The notes under the pieces are model-generated. The model was not told the DNA's origin. It searched no databases and was given only the letters and a program-made list of their open reading frames with translations. A stretch of 56,757 nucleotides of DNA from Actinomycetota bacterium (GTDB lineage: Bacteria; Actinomycetota; Acidimicrobiia; Acidimicrobiales; JAJPHE01): NCBI GenBank assembly GCA_021325435.1, contig JAJPHE010000139.1, forward strand, positions 1 to 56,757. The letters run 5' to 3'. Below, one piece after another: positions 891 through 56,621 of the stretch (positions within the stretch are counted from its first letter, which is position 1; each line of letters starts with the position of its first letter). The position numbers and the translations under genes were made by a program.

Positions 891-930
891 AATAAATAGG
901 TTGACTAGTTCCGGCCGGCCGTGATGGAGT
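891..930 (+). promoter_or_regulatory. Candidate WhiB7-type autoregulated promoter
   Basis: An AT-rich block AATAAATA (891-898) lies two bases upstream of TTGACT (901-906), a good -35 element, in a very GC-rich region. In mycobacteria and Streptomyces, WhiB7 uses its AT-hook to bind an AT-rich block just upstream of the -35 hexamer and activates its own gene. The -10 element is not clear; the sequence TGATGGAGT around 922-930 is the best candidate. Assignment rests on the architecture and on the whiB7-like gene downstream. Confidence 0.5.
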
Positions 931-988
931 TAGCGGGCCGGCGCGCCGCCGGTCACAGCGTCTCTCCGGGGGAGGGGCAGAAAGCAAG

Positions 989-1162
989 ATGAGCATGGGC
1001 ACGTACACGAGGATCGCCGCCAAGCCGATTGGCCAGCCCGGCGTCCCGGCGCGCCCGCGTGGACATTTCGCCCACATGCTCGCCTGGACCGCCAACTACG
1101 GCGTGTGCTCCAACGACACCGCCGTGCGGCTGCGGGGCCCCTGCGAAGGGAGATCGGGCTGA
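989..1162 (+). CDS. 57-aa upstream ORF in the whiB7 leader
   Basis: ATG at 989 opens a 57-codon frame ending in TGA at 1160-1162, with a purine-rich GGAGGGG at 971-977 as possible ribosome binding site. The peptide (start MSMGTYTRIAAKPIGQPG) resembles no protein I know. Its TGA lies inside a 7-bp hairpin (1154-1160 with 1164-1170), and a strong intrinsic terminator follows at 1190-1217, before the WhiB gene. Known whiB7 genes carry a short upstream ORF and terminator, and ribosome stalling on the uORF allows read-through. I infer a regulatory leader peptide. Confidence 0.55.
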   Translation: MSMGTYTRIAAKPIGQPGVPARPRGHFAHMLAWTANYGVCSNDTAVRLRGPCEGRSG

Positions 1163-1222
1163 GAGCCCGACTCGCAGGGAGAAGGCCCCAAGGCCGCCGG
1201 CATCAGCCGGCGGCCTTTCTGT
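1154..1222 (+). terminator. Attenuator-like region: stop-codon hairpin then intrinsic terminator
   Basis: Two hairpins are visible. The first, TCGGGCT/AGCCCGA (1154-1160, 1164-1170), encloses the stop codon of the upstream ORF. The second is a perfect 12-bp stem (1190-1201 with 1206-1217, loop ATCA) followed by TTCTGTTT. The terminator stands inside the whiB7 transcript leader, 47 bases before the likely start codon, so it should cut off most transcripts unless an alternative fold forms. No antiterminator pairing was worked out. Confidence 0.7.
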
Positions 1223-1264
1223 TTCCCGGGGGGACACCCCGATCAGTGAAAGGGGATGGGCGAG

Positions 1265-1573
1265 ATGCTCGCCATCGAGAGAGTCCAAAGAGAGGTGACC
1301 GAAGAGCCAGACTGGTCCAAGGCCGCGTGCCGTGACGGGACGGGTTCCCTCGCCGAGCTGTTCTTCTCCGAGCGGCTCGACGACATCGCACGGGCCAAGT
1401 CCGTCTGCGCCGGTTGCGCTCTCGTCGAGCCGTGCCTCGAAGGGGCACTGGAGCGGCGCGAGCCGTGGGGGGTGTGGGGCGGTCAGCTCTTCCTGAACGG
1501 GGTGATCCTGCCGTTCAAGCGGAAGAGGGGCAGGCCGCCCAAGCACCTGTCGGTCGCGGCCCTGGGCGCCTGA
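1265..1573 (+). CDS. whiB7: WhiB7-like iron-sulfur transcription factor
   Basis: A 102-residue WhiB-family protein. The four cluster-ligating cysteines are in KAACRDG and in CAGCALVEPC (C-x2-C-x5-C). The family G-V-W-G-G turn follows as EPWGVWGGQL. The C-terminus carries KRKRGRPPK, an AT-hook; among WhiB proteins an AT-hook marks WhiB7, which binds the primary sigma factor region 4 and activates intrinsic drug-resistance genes. ATG 1265 is preferred over ATG 1256 because the GAAAGGGG stretch ends right at 1255 and gives proper spacing only to the later codon. The leader carries an upstream ORF and terminator. Assignment to WhiB7 rather than another WhiB rests on the hook plus the leader. Confidence 0.85.
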   Translation: MLAIERVQREVTEEPDWSKAACRDGTGSLAELFFSERLDDIARAKSVCAGCALVEPCLEGALERREPWGVWGGQLFLNGVILPFKRKRGRPPKHLSVAALGA

Positions 1574-13411: not shown

Positions 13412-13484
13412 GGGCGCATAGCTCAGTTGGCAGAGCACCGCTCTTACAAGGCGGCGGTCGCTGGTTCGAGTCCAGCTGCGCCCA
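13412..13484 (+). tRNA. tRNA-Val (anticodon UAC)
   Basis: The acceptor strands GGGCGCA (13412-13418) and TGCGCCC (13477-13483) pair perfectly. The D-arm GCTCAGTTGGCAGAGC, an anticodon loop reading CTTACAA with TAC at its centre, and the T-arm CTGGTTCGAGTCCAG are all present. The discriminator base is A at 13484; CCA is not encoded. The stop codon of the convergent receiver gene begins at the next base. Confidence 0.95.

Positions 13485-56244: not shown

Positions 56245-56621
<377 letters not shown>

Follow-up and report, generated by a model that had tools for sequence, protein, structure and literature searches.

A predicted translation-sensing attenuator upstream of whiB7 in an Acidimicrobiales genome

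The whiB7 locus of the analyzed window (the whole 56,757-nt stretch of DNA, from a member of the Acidimicrobiales) raises the question of whether the translation-dependent whiB7 leader known from mycobacteria and streptomycetes is also present in this lineage, and how its upstream open reading frame (uORF) would set the outcome. In M. bovis and M. marinum the leader starts about 350 nt upstream of whiB7 and contains a uORF with a Shine-Dalgarno sequence (Dinan et al. 2014, PMC4128351), and mycobacterial whiB7 attenuation takes place at a stem–loop with a U-rich tail at the 3′ end of the uORF (PMC4128351). According to the model described for whiB7 and wblC, full translation of the uORF leads to the terminator, while drugs or amino acid starvation lead to the antiterminator (PMC11550727). 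The stalling of ribosomes by antibiotics within the whiB7 uORF was noted as untested (PMC12121999). A preliminary description of the window had claimed an AT-rich box two bases before a TTGACT element, a 57-codon uORF with its stop codon inside a hairpin, a 12-bp terminator, and a WhiB protein with an AT-hook, and each of these elements was recovered in the analysis reported here. The locus very likely consists of an autoregulated promoter followed by a translation-sensing transcription attenuator of whiB7.

The whiB7 gene and its promoter

The whiB7 gene (1265..1573, + strand) encodes a protein of 102 amino acids with four cysteines, the EPWGVWGG motif, and the AT-hook KRKRGRPPK (1517-1543, + strand). 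The longest ORF begins at 1256, but the start codon is probably ATG 1265 rather than 1256, because the Shine-Dalgarno sequence AAAGGGG (1249..1255, + strand), read in the sequence and in the alignment of relatives, is spaced 9 nt from it, and ATG 1256 is ACG in several relatives (e.g., L010, L011, and L020). The protein matched the Pfam family Whib (PF02467) with 54.4 bits at a cut-off of 23.6 (E 1.9e-14), which was the sole Pfam family matched, and the NCBIfam search of the same protein gave no match at E 0.1. Among solved structures, the top match (E 2.3e-15) was 7KIF chain Z, a WhiB7, which scored far better than WhiB, WhiB3, and WhiB1; the first structure other than WhiB7 had E 3.8e-7. The order of EPWGVWGG followed by the AT-hook (RGRP), which is common to the relatives, was also confirmed in the WhiB7 structure alignment. 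The four-cysteine WhiB domain, EPWGVWGG together with RGRP, and the nearest structure identify the predicted product as WhiB7/WblC. The same genome contained 11 WhiB matches, and among the 10 of them that were read the combination of EPWGVWGG and AT-hook occurred only in the window gene and in a paralog, L119 (G000:C94:52300-55500, gene L119:1514-1774), a second WhiB with the AT-hook KRPRGRPR. The AT box, uORF, and terminator were apparently absent upstream of this paralog.

The AT-rich box AATAAATA (891..898, + strand), a probable WhiB7 site with an equivalent in relatives, precedes the −35 element TTGACT (901..906, + strand), which aligns with TTGAC of the relatives. This matches the arrangement of a WhiB7-type promoter, in which an AT-rich box is placed some 3 bp ahead of −35. 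The recurrence of this arrangement was analyzed in a set of 123 loci, from which five without a match to the WhiB7 motif were dropped, leaving 118 upstream regions; 11 near-identical rows were then removed by hand to give 107 regions for the promoter and uORF tests, with some redundancy left among them (e.g., L060 and L125 are from one contig). The data showed that four or more A/T followed by 2-4 bases and TTGAC were present in 75 of the 107 regions, compared with a mean of 1.96 and a maximum of 6 in 50 sets of shuffles. When 68 loci were aligned on TTGAC, which was itself therefore imposed, the consensus of the box was W-A-A-W-T-C-R-G, with T at −4 in 90%, C at −3 in 68%, and A or G at −2 in 92% of the loci. 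The resulting TAAATCRG-TTGACG resembles the WblC motif of S. coelicolor, in which GAAAWY is located three bases upstream of −35 (PMC7157823), and the placement in the window is similar. At the GAAAWY position the window has ATAAAT, which agrees in 4 of 6 bases, and the −10 of the window is not TANNNT.

The candidate extended −10 element (922..930, + strand) consists of TG at 922-923 and TGGAGT at 925-930, with a spacer of 18 bp. TANNNT at a distance of 16-19 bp was not found in the window, and many relatives deviate from it too. The sigma-70 consensus scan also found no promoter. From the position and spacing of the candidate −10, and from the +7/8 rule (PMC7157823), transcription would start at about 937-938, which predicts a leader of about 328 nt. 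At several loci, including L065, L086, and L097, an ATG is located no more than about 10-15 nt away from the −10, and the uORF may be translated leaderless there.

The combined AT-box/−35 pattern WWWWAAWNNNTTGACN occurred without mismatch at a single place in the 4.0-Mb genome (160 contigs), which was the whiB7 locus, and no regulon was visible with this strict pattern. When one mismatch was allowed, five further places were found versus four for the reversed control pattern, and these places precede unrelated ORFs, while the search with AAAWNNNNTTGACN gave one place without a clear target. Among 20 relatives the strict pattern matched four genomes at five places, of which two were whiB7 and three were not. 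Because the strict pattern misses most of the relatives' own whiB7 boxes, this negative result weighs little.

The upstream ORF and the terminator in relatives

The uORF of 57 codons (989..1162, + strand), taken from the ORF list, is preceded by a Shine-Dalgarno-like GGAGGGG (971..977, + strand), read directly 11 nt before the uORF ATG. Its TGA codon (1160-1162) is enclosed in the hairpin TCGGGCT-GAG-AGCCCGA (1154..1170, + strand), and downstream from it the putative intrinsic terminator (1190..1225, + strand) combines a stem of 12 bp (1190-1217) and a T-rich tail. No other terminator-like site was found between 850 and 1700, where the mean of shuffles was 0.2. The Rfam search of the whole window above the gathering score returned no family at the leader, and its only hits were a bacterial RNase P RNA (class A; 56247-56615, − strand) and a tRNA gene (13412-13484, + strand).

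Of the 118 upstream regions, 93 had a called terminator, and the terminator core was GGCCGCCGG, GGCCGTCGG, or GGCCGCTGG in 68 of 75 loci. The inverted repeat GGCCGCCGG..CCGGCGGCC was present at only three places in the window's own genome, and this rarity led us to reject the idea of a generic terminator. The stricter class-wide pattern of the core matched one of 119 genomes, at its whiB7, and was too narrow to be informative. For the uORF position we used the 78 of the 107 loci that had calls for promoter and terminator alike (29 lacked a call for one or the other). At 75 of these 78 loci an ORF with 48 or more codons ended 18-33 nt (median 26) before the terminator, the exceptions being L091, L092, and L120, while shuffles gave a mean of 4.7 and a maximum of 11 loci in 100 sets. 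The 18-34 nt window between stop codon and terminator was chosen after viewing a scan up to 95 nt, and the shuffles were judged with the same window. Stems of at least 5 bp enclosed the uORF stop codon at 56 of 75 loci. The mean energy of this hairpin over the 75 loci was −6.3 kcal/mol versus −3.3 kcal/mol in shuffles, and it was within the best 5% of its own shuffles at 23 loci (3.75 expected); the hairpin of the window was better than 98% of its shuffles.

The uORF peptide had no match in Pfam or NCBIfam, in agreement with its being unfamiliar in the preliminary description. Relative to long nearby ORFs, the uORFs showed only a modest enrichment in the amino acids A, T, M, K, and N, and no run of sensor codons was recognized. 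An alanine-rich sensor was considered and rejected, because the difference between 14.2% Ala in uORFs and 11.3% in long nearby ORFs is too small. The codons K-P-I-G (1022..1033, + strand) of the window belong to an N-terminal W/Y..KPxGxxG motif in the uORFs of near relatives. The expression W..(.)KPxGxxG matches eight of 75 uORFs, one of them at a non-homologous place, and the window has Y with KPIG. This early motif was seen in the window and in the uORFs of L010, L011, L015, L016, L021, L022, and L032, and in several relatives its codons CCGATGGGC repeat the sequence of the antiterminator arm described below, which could represent a decoy or a second arm. The commonest stop codon of the uORFs was UAG (39/75), compared with 35 of 126 long ORFs of the same loci, which may include wrong frames (Fisher p 8e-4); the uORF of the window ends in UGA.

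To which organisms the locus extends was examined with a WhiB7 search in 59 genomes, all of which gave a match at E 1e-3, where other WhiB proteins are included. The level of true WhiB7 in this search, E 4e-18 or better, was reached by 41 of 58 relatives, and the remaining 17 stopped at 9e-12 or worse. The named matches were largely Acidimicrobiia, Acidimicrobiales, and Ilumatobacteraceae, which suggests that the lineage is the Acidimicrobiia; a cultured relative, Ilumatobacter nonamiensis, was among those with a whiB7 match (L074). Three assemblies with Acidimicrobiia-like whiB7 loci, which are L059 and L102 (both titled Bifidobacterium breve) and L107 (titled Terriglobia), are probably misnamed or misbinned. 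The position of the uORF, the terminator, the AT box, and an antiterminator were found again in different families within the order of the window, which supports the earlier claim that the leader mechanism is conserved in the lineage. The lack of a conserved uORF or terminator in sister genomes would have spoken against that claim, and both were conserved there. By these comparisons whiB7/wblC attenuation would extend to a lineage that is probably the Acidimicrobiia.

In a sample of the phylum, 28 of 149 genomes matched WhiB7 at E 1e-12. Among 20 regions from the wider phylum a terminator was called in 10, comprising three of the same class or order, all four of family f89, two of family f92, and one weak case (7 bp); there was no call in nine, and in L159 the anchor fell on a wrong stretch. 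The uORFs of family f89, which belongs to the same phylum, end in sequences such as RPGT. The simple terminator detector found none at the three loci of family f97. Since families resembling known whiB7 hosts are among those missed by the detector, the lack of a terminator call there says nothing.

A predicted antiterminator at the end of the uORF

A pairing absent from the preliminary description was found between the last codons of the uORF (1126-1139) and positions 1184-1197. The 5′ arm of this putative antiterminator (1121..1139, + strand), with the core GCGGCU at 1126-1131 and GGGGCC at 1134-1139, is located within the uORF, while the 3′ arm (1184..1201, + strand), with GGCCCC at 1184-1189 and GGCCGC at 1192-1197, overlaps the 5′ arm of the terminator. 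The antiterminator written into the uORF is the main addition to the preliminary description.

Pairing was compared across 75 loci by matching the final 60 nt of each uORF against the 10 nt before the terminator stem together with the initial 9 nt of the stem's 5′ arm. The data showed that the own pairing was stronger than the swapped one at 61 of the 75 loci (−24.6 versus −20.9 kcal/mol, Wilcoxon p 3.7e-10), and at 42 of 52 when one locus per cluster was used (p 5.1e-7). The same was observed with the variable 10 nt alone, where own exceeded swapped at 51 of 75 loci (p 3.7e-4) and in 36 of 52 clusters (p 6.2e-4). The uORF end also paired better than its reversed version (65/75 loci), better than the preceding 22 codons (70/75), and better than 95% of mononucleotide shuffles (51/75, with 3.75 expected). 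Hence, as judged from these swaps, the predicted antiterminator pairing is locus-specific.

In the alignment of 17 near relatives (A1), 92.2% of antiterminator cells were paired, compared with 24-54% when the arms were slid. Changes on both sides were observed at two of 15 pairs (U-A to G-C and G-C to A-U), a number of pairs reached by 138 of 500 shuffles; the number of cells with both-side changes, which was six, was reached by none of the 500, and the covariation score by one. The number of pair types was not above shuffles (reached by 446/500). The both-side covariation within the nearest 17 relatives is thin. In a second alignment (A2), read by eye, CCAGC in the uORF occurs with GCTGG in the terminator, and CCGAC with GTCGG. 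The recurrent (K/Q)RPxG ending of the uORFs is explained by the constraint that the antiterminator helix imposes on it. If the last codons double as an antiterminator arm, then the uORF end and the 5′ and 3′ arms of the terminator must change together.

The leader RNA (936-1264) folded better than all 100 of its dinucleotide shuffles (z −3.55), which was mostly due to the stable hairpins themselves. In local folding of RNA 1104-1201, from which the 3′ arm of the terminator is absent, the antiterminator had a probability of 0.92-1.00. When the whole leader from 937 was folded up to the 5′ arm of the terminator, the outer antiterminator helix had a probability of only 0.05, because the first bases of the leader compete. 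In the complete RNA, all folds that were computed gave the terminator a probability of 1.00, whether or not a ribosome was modeled, and the energies of the two states without a ribosome were −58.5 kcal/mol for the antiterminator and −67.5 kcal/mol for the terminator. Because the complete terminator always wins in folding, antitermination would have to be kinetic. A ribosome modeled at the stop codon weakened the antiterminator state to −37.5 kcal/mol, with the state still present, and the corresponding mask (1146-1175) left the antiterminator arm of the window free; only the masks placed four or seven codons upstream of the stop position abolished the antiterminator. In silico, the antiterminator and the terminator are mutually exclusive, as expected of an attenuator.

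The proposed switch, its rivals, and known leaders

The reading of the locus as an attenuator is supported by what sequence and comparison show: how the leader is built and how it is conserved, an antiterminator pairing specific to each locus, and two helices that exclude each other. We infer uORF translation, the transcription start, the drug response, and the ribosome positions that switch the fold. In the proposed mechanism, WhiB7 would bind the AT box and direct the RNA polymerase holoenzyme containing the housekeeping sigma factor to TTGACT, and the transcript, which would start near 937, would carry the uORF of 57 codons. During translation at normal speed, ribosomes would sit on the last codons of the uORF and melt the hairpin with the stop codon as downstream RNA emerges. 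The antiterminator would then fail to hold, so that the terminator stem would form and transcription would end before whiB7. If ribosome-targeting drugs or amino acid shortage delayed or halted translation upstream, the free 3′ end of the uORF would pair with 1184-1201 and sequester the 5′ arm of the terminator, which would allow read-through into whiB7. The WhiB7 made by read-through would activate its own promoter.

The switch could alternatively depend on what the uORF encodes: in the manner of ErmCL, its peptide could stall ribosomes when particular antibiotics are present, and this stalling would switch the RNA. Such a drug-specific arrest peptide seems unlikely, even though the codon spacing of the N-terminal W..KPxGxxG is fixed in near relatives, and the uORF of the window has RLR near its end; +X+ is a macrolide arrest motif. 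This RLR is RP in close relatives, and the antiterminator pairing explains why the RPxG tail is conserved. The pN/pS values in 20 pairs of related uORFs ranged from 0 to 1.70, with a median of about 0.62 and three pairs above 1 (the counts are small, and the uORF of the window is in none of the pairs), which suggests that the peptide is mostly weakly constrained while the frame is kept. A general translation sensor is therefore favored over a drug-specific arrest peptide. Between families the peptides also vary widely, while the length of the uORF, the position of its stop codon, and the RNA arms remain constant.

Two further explanations place the control, or the hairpin, outside such a sensor. 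The fold could mainly hide the Shine-Dalgarno sequence of whiB7, with the hairpin at 1190-1217 being incidental, and CCCC 1237-1240, as read from the sequence, could pair weakly with GGGG 1252-1255. However, a T-rich tail belongs to this hairpin, whose core is near-fixed in most relatives, and the pairing compared across the loci uses the 5′ arm of the hairpin, not the Shine-Dalgarno sequence, which makes translation attenuation very improbable. It is still less credible that the terminator merely ends the upstream inositol-monophosphatase-like gene (120-872) and that the ORF arose by chance. That gene lies on the same strand as whiB7, but a promoter-like element separates the two, the uORF is found at nearly all of the compared loci (75/78 versus 4.7 expected), and the antiterminator is locus-specific. 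The translation-sensing attenuator of whiB7 remains the preferred reading.

This attenuator resembles the Mycobacterium whiB7 leader in its AT-hook WhiB, in the uORF behind a Shine-Dalgarno sequence, and in the terminator at the end of the uORF, and its predicted length is close to the about 350 nt described for two mycobacteria (PMC4128351). It differs in belonging to another lineage, and in that expression is established in Mycobacterium, while the window is known from sequence. Impaired translation of the uORF is also described to favor the antiterminator in the wblC leader of S. coelicolor (Lee et al. 2022, as cited in PMC11550727, PMC12121999, and PMC12421871). In M. tuberculosis the ilvB1 leader, like ribosome-mediated attenuators of the classical type, also has a mutually exclusive terminator and antiterminator set by the position of the ribosome in a uORF (PMC13236596), but the uORF of the window is without a recognized run of sensor codons. 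A whiB7 clade has been named in marine Acidimicrobiales (PMC10205998), and WhiB7 has been described as widespread (PMC4255298), in passages that do not mention the leader; no literature on a whiB7 leader in the Acidimicrobiia lineage was found among the matches listed.

A broader proposal, which we put forward tentatively and with somewhat more doubt than confidence, is that the whiB7 attenuator predates the divergence of those classes of Actinomycetota in which it occurs, and that it acts as a gauge of translation speed indifferent to sequence, whose peptide mostly drifts while its last codons double as an antiterminator arm. If the attenuator reading is true, whiB7 attenuation is not confined to mycobacteria and streptomycetes; another lineage, most of it uncultured and probably corresponding to the class Acidimicrobiia, would retain it as well. 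The same ribosome-watching switch would then be shared by dozens of relatives within a part of the phylum that has received little study. The comparison predicts that the position of stalling, not the sequence of the peptide, matters, and it names the bases that are expected to switch.
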